Shown: positions 344 through 16,788 of the stretch, in pieces
How the letters are laid out: each line of letters opens with the position of its first letter
Position numbering within the stretch: position 1 is the stretch's first letter
Source of the DNA: Bacteroidota bacterium
Lineage (GTDB): Bacteria > Bacteroidota > Ignavibacteria > Ignavibacteriales > Ignavibacteriaceae
Direction of reading: 5' to 3'
DNA: 44,540 nt
Assembly: GCA_022564295.1 (NCBI GenBank)
Contig: JADFLR010000034.1
Coordinates: 1 to 44,540 of the forward strand
The notes under the pieces: generated by a model
Databases searched by the model: none
The model's input: the letters and a program-made list of their open reading frames with translations, nothing else
What the model was told of the DNA's origin: nothing
Program-made: the position numbers and the translations under genes

Positions 344-396
344 ATAATAATTGGTAATGAGGATGGAGTTGTCATGGAAATGTCAAGGGATTGTAA
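344..396 (-). promoter_or_regulatory. Box A: 11-bp-repeat operator and promoter
   Basis: Read on the minus strand there are three consecutive 11-bp units. Unit 1 is TTACAATCCCT (386-396), unit 2 is TGACATTTCCA (375-385) and unit 3 is TGACAACTCCA (364-374). TGACAA of unit 3 can act as a -35. Seventeen bases on is ATTATT (346-351), with TATTAT overlapping it. Four other promoters in the window show the same layout. Head-to-tail repeats of about 11 bp overlapping a -35 are typical of OmpR/PhoB-class activators. It drives the gene starting at 295. Confidence 0.75.
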
Positions 397-490
397 AAAC
401 CTTTAACTGTGAAACGAAAGTCATTCTCATCATTTTAGTCTATCCAGATGAAGGATTAAACGTATCTAGATAAAAATTTATTTATTGGAA

Positions 491-829
491 CTACAATCTA
501 ATATCTACCCGAAACATAGGTAATACAAAAGTTGAAGTTGATGGATCCTTTAATTGCGTCTCGAAATAAAATCTTGCACCTAGCAGAACCCTGCTGTTCT
601 CACCGATATTAAAATAAATTCCGGAAGTAAAATTGATAAATCCTGCGGAGCTTTCGCCTCTGAAGTCTTCCGTAATAACTATTCCAGTTGGGAATAATAG
701 CAGAAAGTTATAATATCTTGTATTAGGAGTTTGAGGTCCGAAATCGTAAAGAGTCTGGATGCTGCAGCCTGCGTTAATAAACAAATTTACCTGCCAGGAT
801 TTATATGCTGTGTTGCAAGTAAAATTCAA
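491..829 (-). CDS. Small beta-strand-rich protein, possible remnant of an outer-membrane protein
   Basis: This is a 112-residue frame with a TTG start and a GGAGG three bases upstream. No ATG is available, and the frame stays open for about 22 more codons upstream without a conventional start. The protein has no signal peptide but is full of alternating beta-type segments and ends in a strand-like MFRVDIRL, as the last strand of an outer-membrane barrel would. I recognise no family. It lies 106 bases downstream of the Asp-box protein and could be co-transcribed. Lack of a signal peptide, weak start and short length suggest the C-terminal remnant of a longer barrel protein, though a genuine small protein is possible. 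Confidence 0.4.
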   Translation of the reverse strand: MNFTCNTAYKSWQVNLFINAGCSIQTLYDFGPQTPNTRYYNFLLLFPTGIVITEDFRGESSAGFINFTSGIYFNIGENSRVLLGARFYFETQLKDPSTSTFVLPMFRVDIRL

Positions 830-935
830 AGACCTCCAAATCAGTAAGATTTTTTGAAATTCTTTACTGATATCAGTTTCACAGCGATTCGTTCATTTCC
901 TAAAAACCTGTCTTCCAGCCAGATCTCCGTCGTGA

Positions 936-3053
936 TTAACGAAGAAGGATCATCTTCTTAGTATCAACATATTCCCCGGTTTTCAATTGATAAAAATATA
1001 CTCCACTCGGAATATCAATTGCATTCCATTCAACTTCATAAGTGCCTGCAGGTTTTTCTTCGTTAACAATAGTTGCAATTTCTTTTCCTAAAACATCATA
1101 AACCTTCAAACTAACAAATTGCCTATTGCTTACTGAATACTGAATACTGGTTAATGGGTTGAACGGGTTGGGGTAGTTTTGTTCCAGAAAAAAACCGGTT
1201 ACTGAACCAGTTTGATTAGCATTAAAAATTCCGGTCGTTATGTCCCTGCGATATATGCCATTACCAAAAGTACCCGCAAACAAATAATTTTCTGGCGAGC
1301 TTTCCATCGAAAATACAAAATGATTGACCAAGCCATCATTTATCTGTATCCAATCATCCCCGTTATTTGTTGATTTAAACACTCCCTGACCAAAAGTACC
1401 AACAAAGATATTGTTAAGAATATCGACAGATAGAGTCCTTACAGATTCAGGATTTAATAGTCTATTAGTAACTGCCTCCCAGGAATTACCGTCATCAGTA
1501 GAGCGGAAAACACCGCTATCTGTAGCAGCAAAAATATAATCATTTGTAGTAATTACAATATCGGTGATGGTATTAGTGGAGATGCCAGCACCTACAGGAG
1601 ACCAGGAATCTCCGCTGTTAGTTGAGAAGAAAATACCGTTAGAGGCAGTAACTGCGAACAAGTGGTCACTGGAATTCAGTGCCATTTTTCCAATATCTTC
1701 ATTTGTAAGTCCACTTTGATTCCAGTTTCCACCGTTGTCTGTAGAACGAAATATTCCTTCATCCGTTCCGGCAAATATCTGCTCTGCCGAATTGGATTTA
1801 AACACATTTACAGTATTGTTGGGCAGGGCGTCAGTAATCCAGGAGCTTCCCTCGTCAGTGGAACGGAATATACCGTTCAGCGAACCACACAACAAATCAC
1901 CAGATGGTATTTCAATAATGTCGAATACAATAGTATTTTCGATTCCGTCATTAACCCGTTCCCAAATTCCTCCGTTATCCAGCGAGCGGAAAAGTATGCC
2001 CCTTGTGAATTCCCAAAACGTTTCAGCGAATAAAGTTCCCTGAGTAAAACTGATAGAAGCAATGAAGGAACCTGGTACCCCGAAAAGGTGCCAGTCATTT
2101 CCATTATTGGTTGTGCGAAACAGTCCGTGTTCTGTTCCGGCAAAAACATCACCTGCAGAGTTGGTTGTGATATAACGCAGATTGAGACTGTCTGCCAATC
2201 CCTGGTTTACTTTTTCCCAGCTAACACCGCTATTCGTGGAACGGTAAACACCGTCTCTGTCTCCTGAGTTATCCCATACTCCTGCATATAATTGATTACC
2301 CGGCGAAGCGGTAAAGAATTGAACCACATAGACGCTGTCCGGTAAGATATGGAAAAGTGACCAGCTATCGCCGTTGTCAGTCGAAAGGTAAACACCGGAA
2401 GTTCCCGCAAAAATTTGATTCTGACTATCTATGCTTAAAGAACTTATACCTGAAGTTAGGTTCGTCTGTGTCCAATGATCTCCACCGTCAATCGATATGT
2501 GAACGCCGTCAAAATTTCCTGCAAACAGATTGCCTTGTGAGTTTTCTGCTAATGATGAAATTCCGAACAAAGGTGTTGTGGGCTGCTGCCAAGTTGTGCC
2601 GTCATCAGTTGAAATATAAAGTTCTCCGGAATAAGCAGCGAAGATGCGGTCTGATGAATCGATAAACAGTAAGGTGATGTGAATATCTTCACCTGCCAAT
2701 GCTGTTGGTATCCAGTTGTCACCATTATCGGTAGATAAATAAACACCAGCGTGAGTACCTGCGAAAATCCAATCCATAGAATTAATTGCAATTGCCCTAA
2801 CTGCTTCAAAGAAAACAGAATCTGAATCTATAGGTAATCCGGAAGTAACCGGTAGCCAGATGTCAGCGGTTCCATCCGATCTGAAAATACCGGAAGTCGA
2901 TGTTCCAGCAAAGACATTCCCATTTGATTGAAAAGCAACTGCTTCGACTTCTCCACCAAAGGGTCCGTTGGTAGATTCCCAGAAATTTGTTTGTGCTTTG
3001 GTTTGAACTGTAATAGCCGCAACCAACATAAATAGTACAGATAACTTTTTCAT
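936..3053 (-). CDS. Secreted Asp-box (BNR-type) repeat protein with type IX-like sorting domain
   Basis: A protein of about 705 residues, taking the ATG at 3053 as start: an AAGGA site lies just upstream, and the signal peptide begins there (MKKLSVLF, ending near KAQ). The body is a run of repeats of the form STDNGxxW preceded by xIFAGT. These are Asp-box hairpins as in sialidases and Vps10/photosystem-stability-type beta-propellers, here probably one or two large propellers. The last ~85 residues are the sorting domain: NYPNPFNP, then VYDVLGKE, then SGVYFYQ and a KKMILLR end, marking export by a type IX-like system and surface attachment. No sialidase active-site set is evident. It starts 68 bases after the gene at 3122-4222 and probably shares its promoter. 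Ligand unknown. Confidence 0.85.
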   Translation of the reverse strand: MKKLSVLFMLVAAITVQTKAQTNFWESTNGPFGGEVEAVAFQSNGNVFAGTSTSGIFRSDGTADIWLPVTSGLPIDSDSVFFEAVRAIAINSMDWIFAGTHAGVYLSTDNGDNWIPTALAGEDIHITLLFIDSSDRIFAAYSGELYISTDDGTTWQQPTTPLFGISSLAENSQGNLFAGNFDGVHISIDGGDHWTQTNLTSGISSLSIDSQNQIFAGTSGVYLSTDNGDSWSLFHILPDSVYVVQFFTASPGNQLYAGVWDNSGDRDGVYRSTNSGVSWEKVNQGLADSLNLRYITTNSAGDVFAGTEHGLFRTTNNGNDWHLFGVPGSFIASISFTQGTLFAETFWEFTRGILFRSLDNGGIWERVNDGIENTIVFDIIEIPSGDLLCGSLNGIFRSTDEGSSWITDALPNNTVNVFKSNSAEQIFAGTDEGIFRSTDNGGNWNQSGLTNEDIGKMALNSSDHLFAVTASNGIFFSTNSGDSWSPVGAGISTNTITDIVITTNDYIFAATDSGVFRSTDDGNSWEAVTNRLLNPESVRTLSVDILNNIFVGTFGQGVFKSTNNGDDWIQINDGLVNHFVFSMESSPENYLFAGTFGNGIYRRDITTGIFNANQTGSVTGFFLEQNYPNPFNPLTSIQYSVSNRQFVSLKVYDVLGKEIATIVNEEKPAGTYEVEWNAIDIPSGVYFYQLKTGEYVDTKKMILLR

Positions 3054-3121
3054 TATGTCCTTCATTAATTAGTTTATTTATTAATTATTGGTGCAGTCTA
3101 TAAAAGGACTGCACCTTGTTA

Positions 3122-4222
3122 TTATTTAAGCAATATCATTTTTTTAGTCTCAATAAAAGAACCTGCTTGAAGTCTGTAGAAATAAACTCCGCTTGGTAAA
3201 CCAACCGCATTCCATTCAAACTCATAAGTGCCGGTTGTTAATTCCTTATCTAACAGCACAACTACTTCTTCACCTAAAGCATTATAAATTTTAAGTGTAG
3301 CATAAACTGAAGAGGGAAGTGAAAATTTTATTATTGTACTAGGGTTAAACGGGTTTGGATAGTTTTGTTCTAGGGCAATTTCTTCCGGTAAAAATACTTT
3401 TCCATCATCCACGGAAGTAATAATAACAGAGTCAATCTTAGTTATTAATCCCGGTATAAAGAACGGGTCGATTTCTAAAACTGACAGATCAACATTTGTT
3501 GCCGGGATAACTCCCTGGACAATCCAGTATTCTTCGGCAATCCAGATAGAATCATTCAGAAAAAAAATTGGTATCACAATTGGAGGAAGCGGTGGTGGAG
3601 GTATTATTAGATAGCTGATTCCGAATTTTCTTACAAACTTTTTACAATTAAAGTCACCGATAGGTGTTGATATGGAATCATCCGGAAGTCTTTCTCCTAG
3701 AACCTCAAGCCTTAACGGCAGAGTTAGTCCATCAATAGTAACTGAAGTATCAAACTGGAGAATTGTGTACTCATCATTAATGGTTTGGTCGAACCGATAT
3801 ACAGAATACCATTCTTCCAACGAGTTGAATAATTCTGCGAAACTAAAATTTGGATTGTTTAATACTGAATCAAGAACCGAGAGGAGAATCCCGAGGTATC
3901 CAACATTAAAATATTCATATCCATCGGGACCTGAAAAATGGAAGAACAATGAATCAAGATAAGACTGAAAACGGATAGTTTCTGCCGGACCTGATTTGGT
4001 CTGGACTATTTTGGCAAGCTTACCCTCGTAATTACTTTCCGTAATAAATAAGTCATGCCTATAATATCTAAGTGTTTCAATTTCATTGTTTACTGAATCT
4101 AAGGGGGTTACTTGGTATTCCCACCTTAAGCCTGGTTGCTCCGGAAAATAATCGCTTGCCTGCTGTGCGTGGTTATTTTCAAAGATAATTAGTAATAAAA
4201 GAAAGTAAATAAATCTCTTCAT
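3122..4222 (-). CDS. Secreted protein of unknown function with type IX-like sorting domain
   Basis: A 366-residue protein with an N-terminal signal peptide (MKRFIYF, hydrophobic core, cleavage near NHAQ) and an AGGAGG-like site before the ATG. The middle (about 25-270) is beta-rich and opens with YFPEQPGLRWEYQV. Proteins starting this way occur as exported proteins in this group, but I cannot assign a function. A proline-rich loop (IIPPPPLPPI) lies near residue 210. The C-terminal ~85 residues are a sorting domain (NYPNPFNPST, IYNALGEEV, SGVYFYRLQ, TKKMILLK). It is the first gene after box B and is followed closely by the Asp-box protein, so the pair probably forms a surface operon under the repeat operator. 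Confidence 0.8.
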   Translation of the reverse strand: MKRFIYFLLLLIIFENNHAQQASDYFPEQPGLRWEYQVTPLDSVNNEIETLRYYRHDLFITESNYEGKLAKIVQTKSGPAETIRFQSYLDSLFFHFSGPDGYEYFNVGYLGILLSVLDSVLNNPNFSFAELFNSLEEWYSVYRFDQTINDEYTILQFDTSVTIDGLTLPLRLEVLGERLPDDSISTPIGDFNCKKFVRKFGISYLIIPPPPLPPIVIPIFFLNDSIWIAEEYWIVQGVIPATNVDLSVLEIDPFFIPGLITKIDSVIITSVDDGKVFLPEEIALEQNYPNPFNPSTIIKFSLPSSVYATLKIYNALGEEVVVLLDKELTTGTYEFEWNAVGLPSGVYFYRLQAGSFIETKKMILLK

Positions 4223-4321
4223 AACAAACCTCCTTGTTTTTAATAAAAATTTTCTTTGTCGAAATCCTTATCCATTTGTTCCATTTCTCAATATATGTCA
4301 ATTGTCCTTAATTTCATTTCC

Positions 4322-4374
4322 ATAATAATTAGTAAAAAGGATAGAGTTGTCATGGAATTGTCATGGAATTGTAA
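4322..4374 (-). promoter_or_regulatory. Box B: 11-bp-repeat operator and promoter (most regular copy)
   Basis: On the minus strand: unit 1 TTACAATTCCA (4364-4374), unit 2 TGACAATTCCA (4353-4363), unit 3 TGACAACTCTA (4342-4352). Units 1 and 2 differ at only one or two positions, so this is the cleanest copy. TGACAA of unit 3 is followed 17 bases later by ATTATT (4324-4329). The stretch continuing downstream to about 4309 is nearly identical to that after box A. It drives the sorting-domain gene starting at 4222 and probably the Asp-box gene after it. Confidence 0.8.
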
Positions 4375-4451
4375 AATATTTACAGGAATTGAGAATTAAT
4401 ATTTATCAAGAATTGATAGAAATGTTGAAAAGGAAGTAAAAAATTAAGAGT

Positions 4452-7109
4452 CTAAAAAGAATACTTAAGACGTAGAATCGCCAATCTGCCAATTTCCGGA
4501 ACAGCTATAAATTCCCGATGTAAATTGTTCAGGACGTTTTGTATTGAGAGAGCCAGCTCAAAACTACGATTGAATGGCAATTTGTAACTTGCATTTATAT
4601 CCACTACAAAATAAGAGGGTACAGTACCTCTTCCAACTCCGGATACAACAGGGAAGCTATCAATATAGCGCAAGCGAAGCTGGCTGTTCAAACCAAGCTC
4701 CCAATTATTATAATGTACAGTCACTCCAATTTTATGTTTTGGCGCATTCAATGCTACGTCTTCGGGTTCCCCAACTTCTCTTTCCCAAAAATTCTCGCTA
4801 ACATAACTGTAGTTACCTCTGAATGACCAATATCCTAAAGTATAATAAGTCAGACTTAATTCCACACCATAGTGCGATACATTACCATAGGTTCTCGTAG
4901 TTACAAGCAAATCAGCTGGATTACCTTCCTCAGGTGTTACAGTTCCTACGGGAATTCTTTTACTAATAAAATCAGCTAACTCCATTGCATCTTCAGAAGG
5001 CATAAAGTTACTCAAATACACTGCAAGAGAAGTAGGTTCAAAGAAAACATTTGGTGTTTCAACAACGTAGGGAGCTATAAAATTTATGTTGTTTTCATAA
5101 TAAATATTTGTACCTATAACAAGTTTCTCACTTACATTACCAATGTACCCAATTTCAAATGCAGTTGTACGCTGTGGTTCAAGAGGTGCAATATCTATAA
5201 CATCATCAGGAGAGGCGGCTACAAACTCTCCGGTATTTGTATCGAGCAACTTAAGTATTGACCCAACCTGTTCTGAATTAGGGGGTGGCAATGCTGAGAG
5301 ATCGATGCCTTCCTGTGCTAAAAGAGATACAACAACATCCCACATTTGTGTTGCTTCAGCCGGTAGATCCAACGGGTCAGGCATAAATGGCGATTGCATA
5401 TACAATCCTCCGATACCACCATTTTCATCCCTTCTGAAATTATAACCAGTTTCCGGTACACCACGTAACCGAGCTCGATAGGGATCCAGTTCTGGTGAAC
5501 TAACATCAAAATCGAAGAAGAAATCTCCTGTTTCAGGAGTTTGATATGCTCTGTTAAATGTTATCCGAAAAGTGTTATTTTCATTTGCCCGGTAAACTAT
5601 TGCAGCCCGGGGTGAGAACACGATATCCTGTAGTCGGCTGTTTTCATCAACACGTGCTGCAAGGATTAATTTTAATTTTGAGGATAGAATTGTTTCAGAT
5701 TGTAGATAGACACCAATTTCATTTATATCATCATTATCTTCATTGCTCCCATGCAAAGTGCTTTGTGTATTTGGTCTGGTTAATAATAAATCAGCACCAT
5801 AAGTGAAATGTTGACGTTCATTAATTAAAGTGAACCCGTGCTGGATCTGCGCAACGAGCAAACTTGAATTATCAATTAAGAGATCACCATTTCGTAAAAA
5901 AAATGATTCTCCGGCATCACTGCGATTGAAATATACCTGGGCAAAAAGTGCTTTATAACTTAATCTACCCTGTATGTAACTAGAAGTCCAGTCTATTGCC
6001 TGAACAGCGCTGGCTCCTGTAATCTCGATATCACTGATCCTGGAAATCCCACCGGATAGTATAGCAGTAAAGTCGTTAGTTAAAAGAAAATCAAAACGGG
6101 CATCAGCACTGATTTTTTCAACATCGAAGTCTCTTTCATTTGCAATTTTCCCACCCTCATCAATTCTGCCTTCACTTGTTTGAACACCCTTGGTAATTGA
6201 ATCAGGTTCAGCCGGATCGAAATATTTCCAATCATTTCCCTGATAGTATTGACCGGAAATTTTATAGCCAATTTGCTGATTAATAATACCGGCGTGCCTA
6301 AACGAAGCTAAAAATAAACTTCGTTCTCCTCCCCCAATTGTTACAGTGGTTCCTTGAGAACTAAAAGGTGATCTTGTAATTATATGCATCACACCTCCGG
6401 CAGAATTTGGCCCGTATAAAGCCGAGCCAGGACCCAATACCAATTCAATACGCTCGATATCATCATCGATAGTTGGAATAAGGTTATAAACATTAAACCG
6501 AAGAGATGGAACCTGTGCAAGACGGTTATCTATGAGAACCAATAGGCGAGAGGAGATTGCACCATTAAAACCACGTATTACAACACGGTCCTGATTTAAT
6601 CCCGTACTCACTACATCAACCGCTGTTAATCCTTTTAAATGTTCGGTTGTTACTAAGGTTGGATTTGATTCAATATCCGTTGATTTAAGCACAATTACTG
6701 CTGCGGGGGCTTCAGTAACTTTTTCGGGACGACGTGAAGCAGTAACAACCACTGGATTCATTTCAATCCCTGTTGGTATTAATTCAACATTTAATAATTT
6801 CGTTTCATAAGCAGCAAGTACAATATCTTTTATGATTTTACTTTTATAACTGATGAAGGTAATGGATAGAGTGTAACTGTCCGCCGGGAGATCCTGAATT
6901 TTATATTCACCTTTTGAATTTGTAGAGGTTCCTTTTCTGAATTCTCCGGAGGTTATAATAACATTTGCACCAGCGAGTTCTTCGTTGGTCTTTGCATCAG
7001 TTATTATCCCATGTAATAAGGCGACTTGTCCAAAAGATTTTGTTGATGAAAATATTATTATTGATGATAGAATCAAAGCGGTCAGGATCCATTGTGCTTT
7101 ATGTCTCAT
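4452..7109 (-). CDS. TonB-dependent outer-membrane receptor with carboxypeptidase-regulatory N-domain
   Basis: About 885 residues from the ATG at 7109, chosen because an AAAGG site precedes it and the signal peptide begins there (MRHKAQWILTALIL, cleavage near SFGQ). Order of parts: a CarboxypepD_reg-like beta-sandwich (HGIITDAKTNEELAGANV), then the plug (TASRRPEKVTEAPAAV; VVIRGFNGAISSRLLVLID; LGPGSALYGPNSAGGVMHI), then a large beta-barrel ending in the typical aromatic LRLKYSF. It imports or binds a ligand at the outer membrane using TonB energy. The substrate cannot be read from sequence; there is no SusD partner next to it, so a SusC role is unlikely. A siderophore, vitamin or oligopeptide role is possible. 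It is divergent from the lipoprotein at 7473 and carries no clear 11-bp box of its own. Confidence 0.9.
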   Translation of the reverse strand: MRHKAQWILTALILSSIIIFSSTKSFGQVALLHGIITDAKTNEELAGANVIITSGEFRKGTSTNSKGEYKIQDLPADSYTLSITFISYKSKIIKDIVLAAYETKLLNVELIPTGIEMNPVVVTASRRPEKVTEAPAAVIVLKSTDIESNPTLVTTEHLKGLTAVDVVSTGLNQDRVVIRGFNGAISSRLLVLIDNRLAQVPSLRFNVYNLIPTIDDDIERIELVLGPGSALYGPNSAGGVMHIITRSPFSSQGTTVTIGGGERSLFLASFRHAGIINQQIGYKISGQYYQGNDWKYFDPAEPDSITKGVQTSEGRIDEGGKIANERDFDVEKISADARFDFLLTNDFTAILSGGISRISDIEITGASAVQAIDWTSSYIQGRLSYKALFAQVYFNRSDAGESFFLRNGDLLIDNSSLLVAQIQHGFTLINERQHFTYGADLLLTRPNTQSTLHGSNEDNDDINEIGVYLQSETILSSKLKLILAARVDENSRLQDIVFSPRAAIVYRANENNTFRITFNRAYQTPETGDFFFDFDVSSPELDPYRARLRGVPETGYNFRRDENGGIGGLYMQSPFMPDPLDLPAEATQMWDVVVSLLAQEGIDLSALPPPNSEQVGSILKLLDTNTGEFVAASPDDVIDIAPLEPQRTTAFEIGYIGNVSEKLVIGTNIYYENNINFIAPYVVETPNVFFEPTSLAVYLSNFMPSEDAMELADFISKRIPVGTVTPEEGNPADLLVTTRTYGNVSHYGVELSLTYYTLGYWSFRGNYSYVSENFWEREVGEPEDVALNAPKHKIGVTVHYNNWELGLNSQLRLRYIDSFPVVSGVGRGTVPSYFVVDINASYKLPFNRSFELALSIQNVLNNLHREFIAVPEIGRLAILRLKYSF

Positions 7110-7276
7110 CTGTACCGACCTTTCTTTTCTGAATAAGTTAATCGATGAACAATATATTAATCCAGTAAACTGAAAATAATTATTCCACACAATGGGAAAT
7201 TAAGGGTAATGGATAAACCAGTAAAATCAAAATCTTACTCTACAATTTCAACACGATGTGCAGATATTCAGATTTA

Positions 7277-7292
7277 GTTAACAATAGTTAAC
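7277..7292. promoter_or_regulatory. Paired GTTAAC palindromes, candidate operator
   Basis: Two copies of the palindrome GTTAAC (7277-7282 and 7287-7292) sit 10 bp apart in the gap between the divergent TonB receptor and lipoprotein genes. One helical turn of spacing suits a dimeric or tandem regulator. It lies about 70 bases from box C and could serve either gene. No binding protein can be assigned. Confidence 0.35.
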
Positions 7293-7362
7293 ATCGAATT
7301 ATTTTTTGCCAATAGCAAGCAAAATAAGTTTGCTGGAAGCGATAATGGCCATTACAACTTTT

Positions 7363-7435
7363 TTACAATTCTGTTGCAAAAGTTTTACTTCATTTTGACA
7401 TTTAGGTGACAACTCCAGATTAATAATGGATTATG
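7363..7435 (+). promoter_or_regulatory. Box C: extended 11-bp-repeat operator (five units) and promoter
   Basis: Five 11-bp units follow each other in register: TTACAATTCTG (7363-7373), TTGCAAAAGTT (7374-7384), TTACTTCATTT (7385-7395), TGACATTTAGG (7396-7406) and TGACAACTCCA (7407-7417). The last unit supplies TGACAA (7407-7412); ATTATG follows after 17 bases (7430-7435). The first unit matches unit 1 of box D exactly. It precedes the lipoprotein gene at 7473. Confidence 0.75.
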
Positions 7436-7472
7436 TTTCATCACAAACGATAACATTAGAAGGAGATGTAAA

Positions 7473-7871
7473 ATGTTAAAGAAGATTTTGATATACATAA
7501 TACTATTTTCATTTCTTCATTTGGTAGGTTGTTATTCAACTTCAATTATGAACCCCGCTCAATATCAAGAGCTTAAAGACCATACCGATCAGCCTGATGA
7601 AATCATAGTAAATTTCTATAATAATGAAAAATACAAATTTGCCAGAGGACATTACTTTATAATAAACGATACTCTTGGTGGCGAAAGGTTTGCAATAAAA
7701 AGTGAAATTGAGGAGCCTTATATGAGCAAAATTCCTCTTTCACGAATTGGGTCAATAACAGTTGAAGAAGTGGATAGTGAAAAAACACCTTCTTTAGTGG
7801 AGGAAATTATTGGAATAACGCTTGTAATTATTGCAATTTTCTTTTTATGGAACATTAGTTTTAATAAATAA
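7473..7871 (+). CDS. Small lipoprotein with C-terminal membrane segment, unknown function
   Basis: A 132-residue protein with a strong AGAAGGAGA ribosome site. The N-terminus has a lysine pair, a hydrophobic core and a lipobox LVGC, so Cys20 is probably lipidated. The mature part is beta-rich (EIIVNFYNNEKYKFARGHYFI; IPLSRIGSITVEEVD), which reads like a short domain mapping a value to a structural strand pattern. Residues about 106-128 form a hydrophobic segment (EEIIGITLVIIAIFFLW). A lipid anchor plus a terminal transmembrane helix is unusual for so small a protein. It is transcribed from box C. I recognise no family; similar small lipoproteins are common in Bacteroidota. Confidence 0.8.
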   Translation: MLKKILIYIILFSFLHLVGCYSTSIMNPAQYQELKDHTDQPDEIIVNFYNNEKYKFARGHYFIINDTLGGERFAIKSEIEEPYMSKIPLSRIGSITVEEVDSEKTPSLVEEIIGITLVIIAIFFLWNISFNK

Positions 7872-8030
7872 ATCTGCCAATGATTCTGCAAAGTTAAGAT
7901 TAACGAATTTCATCATCCTTTAATTGTCGGAAGGTGAGGTCAAAAAAAAATTGAAAAAATATTTTATAATGTGCGAGGGTATCTCACCCACAAAGCCGAC
8001 GTCCCCTTTGCGCCCCATACTCCCTCCAAT

Positions 8031-8080
8031 CAGGTTGAAAATTCTCATCAACTTTCAGGTTAAAAATCTCAATCAAATCT
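8031..8080. repeat. Imperfect 25-bp tandem duplication upstream of box D
   Basis: Two adjoining 25-bp copies, 8031-8055 and 8056-8080, both begin CAGGTT and continue with an AAAAT..CTCA..CAA pattern. They differ by a few substitutions. The second copy ends three bases before the first unit of box D, so the array could extend the regulator-binding region or simply be a local slippage product. The rest of the 330-base gap (7872-8030) shows no convincing gene. Confidence 0.55.
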
Positions 8081-8083
8081 ATT

Positions 8084-8134
8084 TTACAATTCTGTGACAT
8101 TTCCATGACAACTCCCACAAATTAAAGATATAGA
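8084..8134 (+). promoter_or_regulatory. Box D: 11-bp-repeat operator and promoter
   Basis: Unit 1 is TTACAATTCTG (8084-8094), unit 2 TGACATTTCCA (8095-8105), unit 3 TGACAACTCCC (8106-8116). TGACAA (8106-8111) is separated by exactly 17 bases from TATAGA (8129-8134), a good -10. It precedes the gene at 8202. Confidence 0.8.
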
Positions 8135-8201
8135 TTAAAATCAAAGGAAATTAAGATTGTAGTTTGAAAGGATTCATAAATATTTTGAGGAAGATTAGCA
8201 A

Positions 8202-9020
8202 ATGTTAAATAAAATTCGAATCATAATATTTCTAAACCTGTTAATTGTTTACTACTTTACCATCGCACAAGAACAAAAAAAGTCTATCATCATTCATCCA
8301 TTAATTGGGAATAAACTTGATGCTGTTGAAGAAGAGTATTTTAAGTTATTTCCAAATATTAGCGGATTCCAGGAATCGGTATTCTATCTCAATCCTGATA
8401 GCACACTCAGAGCTAAAATAGTATATGTATCTGATGGAATAATAAAGGATACAGTCATAGAGAAATATGCCAATTTAAACATAATCAGTGCGCGAATTGA
8501 AAGAGTTGTACGGATTAAAATGAATAATGATATCGGCTCGAAAGTGAGAATAACAATTAACGAAAATGAAAAAGTTAAGGAACAGCTCTTTAGTGCTGAT
8601 GAGAATTACATTTATACTGTAAACCCTGAAAAGTTAAACCAACACATTGGAGCAAAAAAGAATAATTTAATAACATTAACTCCAACGAGTAGCGTACAAA
8701 AAATATCAATCGAACGATCAGCTTCAGGATGGGACTATACAGATTATGGTTTAAAAATCGGAGCTGCAATTGGACTGGTTGGAGGTATTATATATACAGC
8801 AACTAGAAGTGGAAGTATATACGAACAATATATGGGAGAAATTGCAAGAGTTGCAGTTACTATGGCCGGTGTGGTAATTGGGATGGGTGTAGGTTTATTG
8901 AGCGGGTTTATAATATGGCTCATCGATAAAGAAGATGATGTAATTGTTGATCCTAATTTACCTACAGGACTTTCAGAGTTGAAGCAGTATGTAAGATACC
9001 CAGAACCTAAAAGTGATTGA
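8202..9020 (+). CDS. Exported protein with glycine-rich membrane hairpin, unknown function
   Basis: A 272-residue protein preceded by a weak GAGGAAG site. The signal peptide runs MLNKIRIIIFLNLLIVYYF with cleavage near TIAQ. Residues about 20-185 are soluble and beta-rich. Two hydrophobic, glycine-spaced segments follow (LKIGAAIGLVGGIIYTA near 190 and VTMAGVVIGMGVGLLSGFIIWLI near 225), resembling glycine-zipper membrane hairpins. The tail is charged and short. I do not recognise the family. It sits under box D, next to the lipoprotein gene under box C and just before the histidine kinase, so an envelope role inside the same regulon is likely. Whether the hairpin lies in the inner or outer membrane cannot be told. 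Confidence 0.75.
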   Translation: MLNKIRIIIFLNLLIVYYFTIAQEQKKSIIIHPLIGNKLDAVEEEYFKLFPNISGFQESVFYLNPDSTLRAKIVYVSDGIIKDTVIEKYANLNIISARIERVVRIKMNNDIGSKVRITINENEKVKEQLFSADENYIYTVNPEKLNQHIGAKKNNLITLTPTSSVQKISIERSASGWDYTDYGLKIGAAIGLVGGIIYTATRSGSIYEQYMGEIARVAVTMAGVVIGMGVGLLSGFIIWLIDKEDDVIVDPNLPTGLSELKQYVRYPEPKSD

Positions 9021-9221
9021 AAGAATATTATTCATAATTCTTTATCTATTTAGTTCTAAGAATCGTACAGTAAACTTTTAAATCAACAGTTATAAATCAA
9101 ATCCATTCTAGCTAAAAATCTTAAAAATATTGCACTTCTAAATATTACACTGTAACTTAAGGGCAATAATTGCTATAGCCTTTACCATTAATTCAAATGA
9201 ACGAGATACGGTAATTATAAA

Positions 9222-11681
9222 ATGAAAAGTGCATTTAAAAATAGAACTGCGCTCATAATTATTGATGCAATCATTTTTCTTCTCTGTATATTCGGGGTTT
9301 ACAGGGTTGCATTAAAAGCTTATCTCCCATTCAATGTCACATCAAATAATTCCTATTTAATTATAAGTGAACTCATTACTGAAGAAGCCCAGGTTGCAGT
9401 AAAAGATACAATATTAACAATAGATGGCTACGAATTCCGGAATTGGGAGGAAATTGAATTATATACTGATGGGAAAAATATTAATGATAACGTAAATATC
9501 TCATATTTTAAAAGTGGTCAGATTGCTTATTCAAGCGTTTCTCTTATAAATTATTATTCGGTTTTTGAAGTCATAATTATTGCTTTTGTTTCAGCTCTCT
9601 TTATTTTTCTTTCAATATTTGTAGTATTGAAATCCGATGAAGATTCCGCAATACTGTTCCATTGGGCAAATATAAGTTTGGCTATGGTAATTGCAATGAC
9701 ATCAGCTAATTACACAGTTGGACCACAATTTTTAAGTCGATTTCTTCATATGCTTTTCCTCCTTGCATTCTGTTTAACACCGATATTCTTTATGCACTTT
9801 ATAAGTAATTTTATAGGATGGACAAATAAAACATATCGATTTGTTCTTTTGATGTTTTATTCAATTGGAATTATCCTCGCCGGCTTCCTTAGTTATTCGT
9901 ACCTTCTTGCAGTAAGAAATTTATCGCTGGAGTCTATTCAACATTATATTTCGATATATAATTTTATATTTCGCCCATTTCTTCTTTTATGTATAATTGG
10001 AATAACATCAGTTCTGATTTATTCATTTATAATAGCAAAAGATGCAATTACAAGTAAAAAGCTTAAATGGTTGTTATTTGGATTCTTGATCGGACCGGTA
10101 GCATTTGCAATTCTCTGGGCATTCCCATTAATGTTCTTTGGCTATCCGTTAATGCCGGAATACTTAATGCATTTATTACTTTTATCATTTCCTGTATCAA
10201 TTGCTATTGCTATCGTCAAATATCAAATGATGGATATAGACCTTATTTTAAGACGAAGTATGGTTTACTCAATAGTCGTAGGTGGACTTATACTAACATA
10301 TATATTACTGTTAACGCTAATTACTGATTTGGTAAAAGGTATCAATGATACTATTCCGGCAGTGATAGCTGCGGTGATGGTGGCGTTCCTACTTCAACCG
10401 GTAAAAAACAAGGTGCAAAAATTTGTCGATAAAAAATTCTTCCGGCTGGAATACGATTACCGTGAAGCGCAGAAAATGTTTTTAGATGAAATAAAAAATT
10501 CAAACGATATTAAATCTCTTGCAGATAAAATTGTTACACAGGCGGATGCATTAATACCAGTTGAAAAAATTGGATTTTTCATTATTAGGCAACCCGAGAA
10601 TAGAGTATCAATTCTAGCGCACAAGGGATTTGAAATTCTTATTGGAAGAAGTCTGAAATTTGACGAGGAGAATCTTAAAACTGATTTATCAATTCCAGTT
10701 GCTCTTGATGATGAAGTAGAACCAGGAGTGGTGATTGAATCAGCAGATTTAAATGTATTTAAACGCTGGGGGATGGTACTGGTTTTTCCAATCAAATCTC
10801 CCTCCGGGGTTTTTCATGCATTTTTGGTTTTAGGAACAAAAAAGTCAGGAGCTAGATATTATCAGGAAGATATTGATCTTCTAAACAACGTGGCCGCAAA
10901 TTCCGCATTAACAATCGATAGAATAAAATTGCAGAAAGAGTTGATTATTGAACATCTTGAAGCCGAGCGTCTGGAAGAATTAAATAAAATGAAATCGCTT
11001 TTTGTTTCAAATGTTACGCATGAACTGAAAACTCCACTTTCTTCTATAAAGATATTTACTGAACTGTTAAAAGAAAAAGCAGGATGTGAGTCGGAAAAGT
11101 CACAGGAATATCTTGATATTATTGAAGGTGAGAGTGACAGGTTGAAAAGATTAATTGATAATGTTTTAGATTTTGCAAAAATTGAGCGTGGAATAAAAAC
11201 CTACGAAATGTCTGTGGTTGATTTTAACCATCTTTCACTCGAAGTATTAAATATGATGCAGTACCAGTTCAAAATATCAAAGATAAATTTAATAATGGAT
11301 ATCGGTTCAGATGAGTCTTTTATAACTGCCGATAAAGATGCAGTTGAAGAAGCAATGATGAATATTTTATCCAACGCAATTAAATATTCAGAGCAGAATA
11401 CCTCAATAACCGTATCGACATTCAAAAGAAATAGTTATGTTTGCTTTGAAGTTGTAGATGAAGGATATGGAATTTCTGAAACCGAATTAGATGATATATT
11501 TAAGCCATATTATAGAACAAAAGACACTAATTTGGTAAAAACAAAAGGGACAGGCCTTGGTCTAGCAATAGTTAAAGACATTCTGGATGCTCACAATGGT
11601 AAAATAATAGTAGAAAGTTCTTTGGGTAAGGGAAGCTCGTTTACATTACAATTTCCAAATGAAAGTAGCAACAAAAAATAA
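9222..11681 (+). CDS. Hybrid-architecture sensor histidine kinase: PDZ-like, multi-TM, GAF, HisKA, HATPase
   Basis: An 819-residue membrane histidine kinase. A first TM helix (about 11-30) is followed by a periplasmic PDZ-like stretch (about 40-105, with KDTILTIDGYEF), then some seven or eight TM helices to about residue 375. A GAF-like cytoplasmic domain (about 420-575) follows. The HisKA box FVSNVTHELKTPLSS holds the phospho-acceptor His600. The ATPase has an N box (MMNILSNAIKY), DEGYGIS and GTGLGLAIV. It autophosphorylates and should pass phosphate to the two regulators that follow: the gene at 11659 overlaps it by 23 bases and the OmpR-type gene comes next. The signal is unknown; this is not a classical PhoR layout (no PAS with two TM helices). 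No 11-bp box precedes it. Confidence 0.9.
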   Translation: MKSAFKNRTALIIIDAIIFLLCIFGVYRVALKAYLPFNVTSNNSYLIISELITEEAQVAVKDTILTIDGYEFRNWEEIELYTDGKNINDNVNISYFKSGQIAYSSVSLINYYSVFEVIIIAFVSALFIFLSIFVVLKSDEDSAILFHWANISLAMVIAMTSANYTVGPQFLSRFLHMLFLLAFCLTPIFFMHFISNFIGWTNKTYRFVLLMFYSIGIILAGFLSYSYLLAVRNLSLESIQHYISIYNFIFRPFLLLCIIGITSVLIYSFIIAKDAITSKKLKWLLFGFLIGPVAFAILWAFPLMFFGYPLMPEYLMHLLLLSFPVSIAIAIVKYQMMDIDLILRRSMVYSIVVGGLILTYILLLTLITDLVKGINDTIPAVIAAVMVAFLLQPVKNKVQKFVDKKFFRLEYDYREAQKMFLDEIKNSNDIKSLADKIVTQADALIPVEKIGFFIIRQPENRVSILAHKGFEILIGRSLKFDEENLKTDLSIPVALDDEVEPGVVIESADLNVFKRWGMVLVFPIKSPSGVFHAFLVLGTKKSGARYYQEDIDLLNNVAANSALTIDRIKLQKELIIEHLEAERLEELNKMKSLFVSNVTHELKTPLSSIKIFTELLKEKAGCESEKSQEYLDIIEGESDRLKRLIDNVLDFAKIERGIKTYEMSVVDFNHLSLEVLNMMQYQFKISKINLIMDIGSDESFITADKDAVEEAMMNILSNAIKYSEQNTSITVSTFKRNSYVCFEVVDEGYGISETELDDIFKPYYRTKDTNLVKTKGTGLGLAIVKDILDAHNGKIIVESSLGKGSSFTLQFPNESSNKK

Positions 11682-12591
11682 AATATTAGTAATAGAAGAT
11701 GACCCGGCAATCTTAACTGGACTGGAAGACTATCTAAGTGCAGAAAATTATGAAATACATACAAGTCAGGATGGATTGGAAGGTTTAAATATTGCATTGA
11801 ATGAACATCCTGATTTGATATTGCTTGATGTAAATCTCCCAGGTCTAAATGGATTCGAGGTCTGCAGAAAACTTAGAGAAGAAAATTTTGTAAATCCCAT
11901 TATCATCATTACGGCAAGTGCTGAACAAGTTGATGAGGTTGTCGGACTTGAGATAGGCGCGGATGACTATATTAAAAAGCCATTTATTTTACGAGAAGTG
12001 TTGGCCAGGATCAGGGCTAACCTTAGACAATCTGAAAGGAAAATTTCAGTTGAGGAAGATGTTAGGCAACATGGAGAAAAATTCAATAGAAATCTTATGT
12101 GCATCATGTTCACTGATATTAAGGATTATTCAAAAAAAATGCATGAGGATGAACTTCTTACAATAGAATTATTGCAAATGCACAACAGGATTATGAATGA
12201 AGTGATAGCTAAATTCAATGGTAAAATAATAGAAATTGTTGGAGATGCATTCGTAGTTTCATTTAATAGCGCTGTAAAAACAGTTAGTTGTGGTGTAGCC
12301 ATACAAGAAAAGTTTAAAAAATATAACAGCTTAAAATCCCAAAATGAAGAGATTGAATTAAGGATGGGAATTCATCTCGGAGACTTAGTTGAGTTTGAAG
12401 GCAAATATAAAGGTGATGCTATGAACATTGCTGCAAGGATACAGCAAAATGCTAAAGAATCCGAAATTTGGATGTCTGAAAGTGTTTATCTAGCTGTGAG
12501 AGGTAAAGTAAAATTTAAATTTAATAAAGTAGGTCTGCGGAATTTTAAAAATATTAAAGAACCAATAACAATTTATAGTATCAGCGAATAA
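11659..12591 (+). CDS. Response regulator fused to class III nucleotide cyclase domain
   Basis: 310 residues. Residues 8-125 are a receiver (IEDD acid pocket, phospho-acceptor Asp57 in LILLDVNLPG, Lys in IKKPF). Residues 145-310 are a class III cyclase homology domain with metal aspartates Asp153 (FTDIKDYS) and Asp196 (VGDAF) and the MNIAAR transition-state motif. At the usual adenine-recognising Lys position there is Glu192, and at the partner Asp/Thr/Cys position Lys249, so the nucleotide cannot be predicted. Phosphorylation by the neighbouring kinase probably controls cyclic nucleotide output. The receiver closely resembles that of the next gene, suggesting tandem duplication. Start: first ATG, overlapping the kinase gene. 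Confidence 0.88.
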   Translation: MKVATKNKILVIEDDPAILTGLEDYLSAENYEIHTSQDGLEGLNIALNEHPDLILLDVNLPGLNGFEVCRKLREENFVNPIIIITASAEQVDEVVGLEIGADDYIKKPFILREVLARIRANLRQSERKISVEEDVRQHGEKFNRNLMCIMFTDIKDYSKKMHEDELLTIELLQMHNRIMNEVIAKFNGKIIEIVGDAFVVSFNSAVKTVSCGVAIQEKFKKYNSLKSQNEEIELRMGIHLGDLVEFEGKYKGDAMNIAARIQQNAKESEIWMSESVYLAVRGKVKFKFNKVGLRNFKNIKEPITIYSISE

Positions 12592-12641
12592 AGTAGTTTT
12601 ACTAACAGAAATTTATTGATCCAAAAAAGTTGAGGGATGAA

Positions 12642-13331
12642 ATGAAGAAAATATTAATTATCGAGGATGATCCTGCAATCTCAAAAGGTCTTGTTGATGC
12701 ACTAAATGCTGAAAACTATCAGACTATGGATATTGATAATGGGGAAAAAGGGTATCATCTGGCTAAGAATGAAAAATATGATCTAATCGTTTTGGATTTA
12801 AAGTTACCGGGCAAAAATGGAATTGATGTTTGTAGGGATTTAAGAAAAGATGGTGTGAATACTCCTATTATAATGGTAACAGTTTTGAAAGAAGAACTTG
12901 ATCAAGTGTTAGGTCTTGAATTAGGCGCTGATGATTATATAACAAAGCCATTTAGCTTAAGAGTGTTGTTAGCAAAAATAAAAGCCATATTAAGAAGAAA
13001 ATCTGAAATAGTTTCAGACATTGAAGAATATTCTTTTGGTGATGTGTATATTAATTTTAAGGCGCAGGAAGCAACTAAGAATAAAAAACCAATAGAGCTT
13101 ACTAATATGGAATTTAAACTACTCAAATATCTTTGTCAGCAGGAAAATGTAGTAATTGATAGGGACACTATGTTAGATGAAGTTTGGGGTTATGATAATT
13201 TTCCAAACACACGCACAGTAGATAATTTTATATTAACTCTAAGAAAAAAAATTGAAGATGATCCTTCTCATCCCCAGCATTTTGTTACAGTGCATGGAGC
13301 AGGTTATAAATTTATTAAAGGGGAAGAATGA
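12642..13331 (+). CDS. OmpR/PhoB-family response regulator
   Basis: 229 residues from the ATG at 12642, preferred over a TTG 12 bases upstream because GAGGGAT is then a well-spaced ribosome site. The receiver has phospho-acceptor Asp52 (LIVLDLKLPG) and ADDYITKPF. The C-terminal winged helix (about 130-227) has the recognisable LTNMEFKLLKYL, VWGYDNFPNTRTVDNFI and VHGAGYKF pieces of the Trans_reg_C family. Members bind head-to-tail direct repeats about 11 bp apart. It is the best candidate in the window to bind boxes A-E, which flank this cassette and have precisely that geometry. The partner kinase is the gene at 9222. Confidence 0.92.
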   Translation: MKKILIIEDDPAISKGLVDALNAENYQTMDIDNGEKGYHLAKNEKYDLIVLDLKLPGKNGIDVCRDLRKDGVNTPIIMVTVLKEELDQVLGLELGADDYITKPFSLRVLLAKIKAILRRKSEIVSDIEEYSFGDVYINFKAQEATKNKKPIELTNMEFKLLKYLCQQENVVIDRDTMLDEVWGYDNFPNTRTVDNFILTLRKKIEDDPSHPQHFVTVHGAGYKFIKGEE

Positions 13332-13628
13332 TTTTGTTTTACAACAAAACCCTATTAGATATAATAATAGTTTGTATTATGCCCTATATTAAAAAAGTTT
13401 GCTCCAGAATTCTATGATAATTAAGTATATCATAAATCATGGTGTAAACTCTGGCTACAGTTTCTATTCGATCCAAACCTATCTCTCTTTTCAAGGTTAT
13501 TTCGAAATGACAAAAAAGAAACTGTTTCGAAAAGTAGGTGATTAAACGGGGCGATTGATTTATTACTCATCGAGTTATTCATTACATCAAATAAGTATTA
13601 ACCCCCTCCATACTCCTTTACATTCTTT
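13332..13628. other. Non-coding gap between regulator and lipid operon
   Basis: I see no gene here. A 7-bp perfect hairpin (TTTTGTT / AACAAAA, loop TTAC, 13332-13349) follows the regulator's stop but lacks G+C and a T-run, so it is at best a weak terminator. Two TTTCGAAA palindromes occur at 13500-13507 and 13525-13532. The rest is AT-rich and unstructured up to box E. Confidence 0.5.
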
Positions 13629-13679
13629 TTACAATTCCCAGATAATTTACTGACAACTTAGGCTAATGTCTTTTATACA
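13629..13679 (+). promoter_or_regulatory. Box E: 11-bp-repeat operator and promoter of the lipid operon
   Basis: Unit 1 TTACAATTCCC (13629-13639) and unit 3 TGACAACTTAG (13651-13661) match the consensus. Unit 2 (AGATAATTTAC, 13640-13650) is degenerate but keeps the 11-bp register. TGACAA (13651-13656) is followed after 17 bases by TATACA (13674-13679), a good -10. It lies 58 bases before the first gene of the lipid operon. Confidence 0.7.
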
Positions 13680-13736
13680 TTGGACATAAGAATTTATTGA
13701 ATAAAAAGAAACAAGAAGTACAAGAAAGAATTAAAA

Positions 13737-14900
13737 ATGAATAAAAAGATTTTAATAACGGGAGCAACGGGATTCCTTGGAAGCAACTTAATGATGAGAA
13801 TATTAAAGAATGAATCTCAAACAAATTTAGTGTTGCTGATAAGAGCAAAGTCCGATGATGAAGCCAAAAACCGGATTCATCTAATCCTGAAAAAGATGAT
13901 AACCAAGGAGAATATTGAGCGTTTACTCTCACGTGTTGAGATATTAAAGGGTAATATAATTGATGAAAAGTTAGGATTGTCAAATTCCACTTATGAAAGG
14001 ATATCGAGCGAAACTACACATATAATTCACTCTGCAGCAAGTGTAAAATTAAATATGAATCTTGAAGATGCAAGGAATGTAAACTGTAACGGAACTAAGA
14101 ACATAATTTCATTTGCAAAATGTGCTAAAAAGTTTGGAGTCCTTGAAAGGCTTGGTCATATAAGTACAGCTTATGTTGCCGGTAATCGGACAGGTACCAT
14201 TTACGAGGACGATTTTGAAGTAGGACAAATATTTGCAAACACTTATGAACAAACAAAATTTGAGGCAGAACAATTAGTTAGAGAACACTTTTCAGAACTA
14301 CCAATCACCATCTTCCGCCCGAGTATTATAGTAGGAGATTCAAATACTGGAGCAACAACATCCTTTAATGTACTCTATTCCCCTTTGAGGCTAATCTATC
14401 ACGGTTACCTGAAAATGATATCGGGATTCAGGAATACACCGATGGATGTAGTTTCAGTTGATTTTGTAGCCGATTCTGTCAGTCAAATCCTACTTCATTC
14501 ACGCAATGGTATCGGTAAAACTTTTCATCTTACTGCAGGAAAAGGCAATACAATGACAGCGGGAGAAATTATAGATGAAGCGGTAGAATACTTTAATCAA
14601 AGAGGAATTAATACTTCAAATTCAGAGGTAGAGTTCTGTCCGCCAAATTTATTTAAGAATGCCGCTAAACAATTATGTGATGAAGCGGGATTGATAATCA
14701 TCGTAGGAAAGCTTTACGAAGCTTATGTGAGTATTATGAGGTTTTTTGATAATAACAAAACATTAAATGAATTAAGAGATACTTTGATCAAGCCAAAGCC
14801 TTTAAATATTTACTACAACAACTTACTTGCTTACTGTGTTAACACAGAATGGGGGAAACGTGAAATGCAAGTTGCACAGTCTATCACGGAGAAGATATGA
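13737..14900 (+). CDS. Thioester-reductase-like SDR (NAD_binding_4 / fatty-acyl reductase type)
   Basis: 387 residues. N-terminal Rossmann motif GATGFLG (9-15), then the extended-SDR catalytic set Ser143 (GHISTAYVAG), Tyr170 and Lys174 (TYEQTK), and a FRPSIIVGDS substrate-side motif. This arrangement is that of the male-sterility/thioester-reductase group, which reduces acyl-CoA or acyl-carrier thioesters to aldehyde or alcohol with NAD(P)H. The C-terminal ~100 residues resemble the helical tail of such enzymes. As first gene of a seven-gene lipid operon it may supply a fatty aldehyde or alcohol, but a sugar or sterol-type SDR role cannot be excluded. It ends in an ATGA overlap with the next gene. 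Confidence 0.8.
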   Translation: MNKKILITGATGFLGSNLMMRILKNESQTNLVLLIRAKSDDEAKNRIHLILKKMITKENIERLLSRVEILKGNIIDEKLGLSNSTYERISSETTHIIHSAASVKLNMNLEDARNVNCNGTKNIISFAKCAKKFGVLERLGHISTAYVAGNRTGTIYEDDFEVGQIFANTYEQTKFEAEQLVREHFSELPITIFRPSIIVGDSNTGATTSFNVLYSPLRLIYHGYLKMISGFRNTPMDVVSVDFVADSVSQILLHSRNGIGKTFHLTAGKGNTMTAGEIIDEAVEYFNQRGINTSNSEVEFCPPNLFKNAAKQLCDEAGLIIIVGKLYEAYVSIMRFFDNNKTLNELRDTLIKPKPLNIYYNNLLAYCVNTEWGKREMQVAQSITEKI

Positions 14901-16786: not shown

Positions 16787-16788
16787 TA

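Follow-up and report, generated by a model that had tools for sequence, protein, structure and literature searches.

The window analysed here, the entire 44,540-bp contig JADFLR010000034.1 (C37) of a 4.07-Mb Bacteroidota genome (coded G000), carries five copies of an 11-bp-repeat box (A to E) and a two-component cassette, and these boxes most likely serve as operator for the OmpR-family response regulator encoded at 12642-13331. This regulator would be phosphorylated by the histidine kinase encoded at 9222-11681 and would activate an envelope regulon from a position over the -33 promoter element. This reading is proposed because the boxes are beyond chance, keep a fixed spacing within the promoter, co-occur with the kinase across genomes and cluster near the regulator gene, and on such sequence-based grounds they are very probably binding sites of the window regulator. 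It is from the directly observed box sequence, conservation, spacing, co-occurrence and clustering that we infer the binding, the direction of activation, the signal and the feedback considered below.

Each of boxes A to E consists of three 11-bp units in register, the third of which opens with TGACAA in the direction of transcription, and the five 33-bp positions given in a preliminary description of this DNA proved exact in every case. Box A (TTACAATCCCT TGACATTTCCA TGACAACTCCA, 364-396) and box B (TTACAATTCCA TGACAATTCCA TGACAACTCTA, 4342-4374) lie on the minus strand and the remaining three on the plus strand, namely box C (core 7385-7417), which three more upstream units in register extend to 7352-7417 (units at 7352, 7363, 7374, 7385, 7396 and 7407), box D (TTACAATTCTG TGACATTTCCA TGACAACTCCC, 8084-8116) and box E (core 13629-13661), where one more upstream unit gives four units at 13618-13661. 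The weakest units are the middle unit of E (AGATAATTTAC) and the first unit of C (TTACTTCATTT). As in operators of the OmpR family, the boxes are thus direct repeats of about 10-11 bp located in promoter regions. When leave-one-out matrices were applied to 2 Mb of Markov sequence (window dinucleotides, one strand), no equal-scoring site was found for A, B, C, D or F, a sixth box elsewhere in the genome, and a single one for E. Removal of similar boxes as well (F in the test of A, A in that of F, A and F in that of B, C in that of D, D and E in that of C, and C in that of E) left no equal site for any of them. Boxes A and F are not independent, sharing approximately 148 bp at 78% identity ahead of related genes.

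Two sequence-only models were used for searches: R1, a covariance model built from boxes A, B, C, D and F but not E, and R2, built from 17 genus sites including box E. Eight sites were detected in this genome by R2 at E-values up to 3.1e-5, comprising A to E, C57:9096 (box F), C57:22402 and C48:88054; all five boxes reported initially are real, and the genome total is eight rather than five. With R1, the sites outside that model received E-values of 0.0039 (C57:22402), 0.012 (C48:88054) and 0.052 (box E, the weakest by covariance model). Box F precedes a member of a barrel-like protein family, and C57:22402 lies approximately 400 bp ahead of a 697-aa protein with a type IX secretion system (T9SS) tail, with no frame of at least 60 aa starting between them. 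C48:88054 stands ahead of a short lipoprotein-like frame; this site (L016, L188) is close to a contig end, and the frame looks shifted near a T run.

Promoter geometry was examined in 45 box promoters from 17 genomes; 28 of these promoters had not been used in the model. Four of the 40 sites fetched were set aside, three as partial boxes (L210, L213, L215) and one because it lies inside an open reading frame (ORF; L211), as were L106 (partial box) and L095 (inside an ORF); the set also leaves out the G016:C33 duplicates, G015:C361:1106, G006:752059, G012:852365, the G003 sites and weaker matches. The half-site T[TG]ACA[AT] is fully matched by unit 3 in 41, unit 2 in 42 and unit 1 in 35 of the 45 promoters, and a fourth upstream unit with at least five of the six letters is present in 10, against a background of 2.7% per position. 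A TAnnnT element begins exactly 19 nt after TGACAA in 38 of the 45 (23 of the 28 sites outside the model, and all eight in this genome), whereas none has it starting at 17, 18, 20 or 21 nt. Counted from the base after TGACAA, T occurs at position 19 in 84%, A at 20 in 98%, T at 24 in 98% and a purine at 31 in 89%. Since the R1 and R2 models stop at +5 and the -10 region lies outside them, the 19-nt spacing is independent of site finding. Of the sites set aside beforehand, TAnnnT stands at 19 nt in all four partial boxes but in neither of the two matches within ORFs. The preliminary description had placed an AT-rich hexamer 17 bases past TGACAA, which is two bases off: TATAGA of D and TATACA of E do start there, but the conserved element does not, and the hexamers at 17 nt have been replaced by the element at 19 nt.

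The -10 elements assigned in this way are TATTATGG in both promoter A (342-349, minus; inferred start 337) and promoter B (4320-4327, minus; start 4315), TATGTTTC in C (7432-7439, plus; start 7444), TAGATTAA in D (8131-8138, plus; start 8143) and TACATTGG in E (13676-13683, plus; start 13688). Their mean match to TA..TTTG over the promoter set is 4.4 of 6 letters, i.e., they resemble the -10 element of Bacteroidota sigma-A promoters at a fixed position. In Flavobacterium psychrophilum, the TAnnTTTG element has been assigned to positions -12 to -5 (PMC9723704, in the part of that article available). By the same rule, transcription would start at offset 31, with TGACAA at about -37 to -32 and the box at -59 to -27. 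Bacteroidota sigma-A promoters also carry a TTG at -33, which is present in the corresponding zone of only 8 of the 45 promoters. The TAnnTTTG-type -10, together with Por_Secre_tail domains, points to the Bacteroidota group, the lineage probably being Ignavibacteria-like.

A panel of 41 genomes was used for analyzing the co-occurrence of boxes and kinase, in which 17 had the kinase (in G002 as an 88%-identical piece of 66 residues, otherwise as a close relative of its sensor part at E up to 1e-38) and 24 did not. A best box at E up to 0.01 was found in 16 of the 17 kinase genomes versus 1 of the 24 others (G027; Fisher p 2.7e-9), and without the five genomes that supplied the model the figures are 11 of 12 versus 1 of 24 (p 2.3e-7). 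At E up to 0.001 the counts become 14/17 versus 0/24, and at 0.03 they become 17/17 versus 5/24; the kinase genome missed at 0.01 is G023, where two boxes with E-values of 0.024 and 0.027 lie 3.4 kb and at most 37 bp, respectively, beyond the regulator gene. The pairing recurs in three families (f1, f2 with G038, and f3 with G034). Boxes in genomes lacking the system had been named beforehand as the outcome that would speak against the link; among the kinase-free relatives such boxes are limited to G027 at E up to 0.01 and reach five genomes at 0.03.

Boxes also cluster near the regulator gene. In nine genomes outside the genus (G006, G007, G010, G011, G013, G014, G016, G023 and G034; regulator 52-61% identical), 15 of the 28 boxes are no more than 25 kb away from it, where 0.37 would be expected. 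This count uses a cut near E 0.027 and leaves out G011:C17:115381 (E 0.0252, 13 kb from the regulator), G012 and G038 (regulator 49-50% identical), the addition of which gives 18 of 40 boxes (expected 0.51); G009 and G036 (regulator 52% identical) add no box at this cut. The assignment of the boxes to the regulator at 12642, as first suggested, is hence supported by the co-occurrence with the kinase, by this clustering, and by the misfit of a paralog (C24:48k) discussed below. Around OmpR-family genes of other bacteria, 80 control loci from a regulator-alignment scan (the matches listed being mostly general OmpR relatives) gave no box match better than E 0.49. That match and a second one (E 1.3) both fall in L222 11821-11885 of Marinoscillum pacificum, approximately 1.2 kb past a 45%-identical regulator, and given these the box may reach beyond the genomes considered here. 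A class-wide search, with filters and a cut-off that miss the known positives G014 and G038, found boxes at E up to 5e-4 in 9 of 149 genomes, including this one. One of these nine, a further genome of the family, has six boxes within 32 kb (G148:C1:1525612-1557296).

Several observations weigh against the assignment of the boxes to this regulator as an activator. G001 has three boxes and no detected regulator ortholog; a kinase relative lies approximately 250 bp from a box there, and because the genome is 80% complete and the stretches read contain runs of 100 N, the assembly may simply not include the regulator gene. In G015, which has both the kinase and boxes, the best regulator match is only 40%; in G027, a weak box (E 0.0064) occurs although the kinase is absent; and G009 and G036 combine a 52%-identical regulator with neither a close kinase nor a good box (best E 0.151 and 0.084, respectively). 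No box was found in L218, a 7.8-kb locus with a 50%-identical regulator, and TAnnnT at 19 nt is absent from 7 of the 45 sites. In addition, genomes related by descent do not count as independent data for the Fisher test, and the cut-off for the kinase was chosen after the score gap had been seen. It is also relevant that sites activated by CenR are upstream of -35 and those between -35 and the start are repressed (PMC9275681, as far as its available text goes), which differs from the arrangement suggested for the present boxes.

The cassette itself comprises three genes on the plus strand. The first (9222-11681) encodes an 819-aa histidine kinase with HisKA and HATPase_c domains and a long N-terminal part that looks multi-pass by eye, the second (11659-12591) a fusion of a receiver domain with a class III (adenylate/guanylate) cyclase domain, and the third (12642-13331, alternative start TTG at 12630) the response regulator proposed to bind the boxes. 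Its receiver and DNA-binding domains exceed the Pfam cut-offs (Response_reg 99.9 vs 30.2 bits, Trans_reg_C 88.2 vs 26.2 bits), which places it in the OmpR/PhoB family. Its best solved relative is MtrA (2gwr), and its highest NCBIfam scores are to YycF and MtrA; the score is under the cut-off in all 25 families listed of the 101 matched, so no named family applies. A recognition-helix stretch, TRT[VI]DN[FY]IL[STN][LI]RK, is present in 12 of 12 aligned orthologs. In the closest relative, G002, the regulator forms an in-frame segment of a 440-aa ORF (G002:C75, L072 1860-3182) and a kinase start is on another contig (C65:460-651), which hints at a rearrangement or an assembly break. The kinase may have its own promoter, as a stretch resembling TTG-N20-TAACTTAA looks alike by eye in G000 and G004. 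A second class III nucleotide cyclase domain is encoded in the same contig at 22702-23169.

The main theme of the genes behind the boxes is the envelope and its lipids. The gene behind box A (1-295, minus) has a signal-peptide-like start and is cut by the contig end; a G002 region 95.9% identical to the A region encodes a homolog that is uncut, stands behind the same box and shows relationship to the barrel-like family, and a 112-aa ORF just upstream of box A (491-829, minus) matches the C-terminal part of that family. Behind box B lies a 366-aa protein gene with a T9SS C-terminal sorting domain (3122-4222, minus), behind box C a 132-aa lipoprotein-like protein without Pfam match (7473-7871, plus), homologs of which occur in G005 (behind a partial box) and G006 (in the same cluster), and behind box D, directly upstream of the kinase, a 272-aa protein without Pfam match that appears membrane-like by eye (8202-9020, plus). 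Box E is followed by a gene run (13737-22634, plus) for a NAD_binding_4/thioester-reductase-like protein, a YegS/DAGK lipid kinase, UbiA, a PPDK_N protein, a 378-aa protein of unknown type, phosphatidylserine decarboxylase and DUF3419. In G002, G004 and G005, this unusual run was not found in the sequence retrieved around the cassette; other genes stand there, which include UbiA and DAGK again in G004. Overall, the targets in this genome are barrel-like (A and F), T9SS-tailed (B and C57:22402) and lipoprotein-like proteins (C), the protein ahead of the kinase (D) and the lipid-related run (E).

A comparable content was observed in relatives. Genes for 5'-nucleotidases stand behind boxes in six of them (G001, G006, G015, G016, G023 and G034), with a T9SS tail above the Pfam cut-off in five and below it in G006. 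UbiA is found behind boxes in three (G038 by Pfam, G004 and G012 by similarity), a DAGK lipid kinase in G010, an aminotransferase-fold enzyme, read as alpha-oxoamine synthase, in G002 and G004, and an AMP-binding ligase in G005. Some box genes are off this theme, including those for a radical-SAM protein (G014) and an AIR-synthase-like protein (G034), and of the 20 box-linked proteins examined, 8 either lack a Pfam match or match just a DUF or a repeat.

It is conceivable, though we consider it unlikely, that the boxes represent the Pho regulon of this lineage, in which the regulator would be a functional PhoB and phosphate limitation the signal, in line with the PhoB-box spacing pointed out in the preliminary description. 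The 11-nt direct repeats resemble PHO boxes (PMC4415409, to the extent of the text available), and the sequence TGTCA-N6-TGTCA on the reverse strand does have the spacing claimed for it; the pitch is, however, general for OmpR-family regulators and not specific to PhoB, because CenR also has TGA-N8-TGA. The kinase core scores highest against the PnpS and PhoR models, albeit below cut-off, whereas the regulator is under both PhoB cut-offs (TIGR02154, 195.2 vs 296.2 bits; NF053854, 161.6 vs 270 bits) and scores higher against YycF and MtrA than against PhoB. The 5'-nucleotidase genes behind boxes would also fit, and so would the lipid-synthesis genes, given the change of lipids reported for Caulobacter under phosphate starvation (PMC6445935, in the part available), but no PstS family protein was found in the genome by a search that was positive in 13 of 14 controls, and there is no box at the PhoU locus (L298). 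At this locus (G000:C16, L298 8262-10053), phoU is located beside a gene reading like a sodium-phosphate symporter. Sister genomes carry a separate, more PhoB-like regulator (NF053854, 237 and 216.9 of 270 bits), no counterpart of which was seen among the four Trans_reg_C proteins of this genome. The best model for one of the latter, the C24:46.5k regulator, is PhoB (188.7 of 296.2 bits), and a distant PhoB may thus be encoded elsewhere in the genome. With regard to family cut-offs, PstS, the PhoU locus and the paralogs, a PhoB box and a phosphate signal are unsupported in this genome, and the system is probably not part of the classical phosphate (PhoB) system. The boxes would work like a PHO-type operator without necessarily being one.

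If the boxes are indeed an activating operator of the window regulator, the kinase at 9222-11681 would phosphorylate the regulator at 12642-13331, which would then bind head-to-tail, as known for its family, on three strong 11-bp half-sites (T[TG]ACAAtTCC), with a weak fourth half-site upstream used in some promoters. The last half-site, TGACAA, would be at about -37 to -32, where a sigma-A promoter would carry its -33 TTG, and the last protomer could take the place of this missing element and contact sigma. Polymerase would thereby be recruited to the TAnnTTTG-like -10 at the fixed 19 nt (class-II activation), and transcription would rise. Such a regulon would remodel the envelope through genes for outer-membrane barrel-like proteins, lipoproteins, lipid synthesis and T9SS-tailed proteins, the last of which include 5'-nucleotidases in relatives, and, as a guess, box D may feed back on the cassette.

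The same placement might be read in the opposite direction, with a real operator from which the bound regulator represses by covering the -33 region; the overlap of the box with the polymerase site would allow this, and CenR acts as a repressor where its sites fall between -35 and the start (PMC9275681), yet we regard it as rather improbable. A TTG in the -33 zone of only 8 of 45 promoters means that they look weak without an activator. Moreover, a rigid distance between half-site and -10 fits class-II activation.

Binding by another OmpR-family protein of this genome appears very unlikely. There are four Trans_reg_C proteins, the window regulator and three others, and for one of these three, C24:48k, some genomes show 11-bp T[GT]ATAA repeats close to where its own gene begins. 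However, the distribution across the genus, followed in full for the C24:48k type, does not fit: it is present in G003, which is without a clear box (best E 0.0456), and it is not among the six of seven OmpR proteins placed in G004, a genome with four boxes at E up to 3.7e-5 (one of its seven regulators is unplaced, and the C24:46.5k regulator was placed by helix only). For these reasons C24:48k is not a likely binder and was rejected as such. In addition, the 15-kb and 13-kb stretches around the three paralogs (L020, L021) contain no box match. The T[GT]ATAA repeats themselves (TKATAA, not TKACAA) are located at L020 7899-7931 and approximately 57 bp before the C24:48k regulator gene of G000, with similar ones in G001 and G005; shuffled sequences reached two units in 3/300 (G000) and 2/300 (G001) cases and three units in 8/300 (G005), and in G002 the repeats do not exceed shuffles (276/300 and 235/300). 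Finally, that the boxes are a dispersed repeat or a relic of gene duplication can practically be dismissed, as the flanks shared by A and F ahead of related genes are all that a mobile or duplicated repeat accounts for, while most other promoters in the 17 genomes share box and -10 but precede unrelated genes, and the fixed spacing of box and -10 contradicts it.

With these findings, a two-component system of a little-studied lineage that has no named family gains a defined operator, a promoter and a list of targets, and with regulator, kinase and eight promoters in one genome, the proposal is directly testable. At single-base precision, a presumed activator half-site takes the position that the -33 element has in a TAnnTTTG promoter, and one regulator is linked to T9SS-tailed 5'-nucleotidases, outer-membrane barrel-like proteins and lipid synthesis. 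No description of such an operator or regulon was recognised in the literature covered by text searches, some of them directed at other questions (titles and the starts of abstracts, with subscription papers mostly outside its scope). More tentatively, the system could be an undescribed envelope-lipid and outer-membrane regulon, patchy within one Bacteroidota class and CenKR-like in motif and theme, with a three-gene cassette in which one kinase would have two outputs, gene activation by the OmpR regulator and cyclic-nucleotide synthesis by the receiver-cyclase (11659-12591), and in which paralogous regulators may read operators one base per half-site apart (T[GT]ACAA versus T[GT]ATAA).

Compared with known systems, the regulator shares its receiver and Trans_reg_C architecture with MtrA, YycF/WalR and other OmpR-family regulators, and the promoters share the TAnnTTTG box with Bacteroidota sigma-A promoters, the -33 zone of which holds TTG where the operator is found here. 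PHO boxes overlap the -35 zone. Those of PhoB/PhoP in E. coli and Streptomyces also consist of 11-nt direct repeats, but the E. coli core is TGTCA, whereas the boxes read T[TG]ACAA, its reverse complement, along transcription; the regulator belongs to another subfamily, and the present system has a Bacteroidota -10 and no PstS family protein. In PHO boxes, an OmpR-family regulator occupies the repeats head-to-tail (PMC4415409). Among described cases, the closest found is CenKR of alphaproteobacteria (Rhodobacter), in which the OmpR-family regulator CenR controls cell-envelope genes through the direct repeat TGA-N8-TGA (PMC9275681). Judging from the available part of that source, the CenKR motif has two half-sites and its activated sites are upstream of -35, whereas there are three to six units here, located over the -33 zone with a Bacteroidota -10. 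What the two systems share is the 11-bp pitch, the TGA start and the envelope theme, since TGACA-N6-TGACA in boxes A to D contains TGA-N8-TGA upstream of envelope genes, and the likeness is therefore one of motif and theme.

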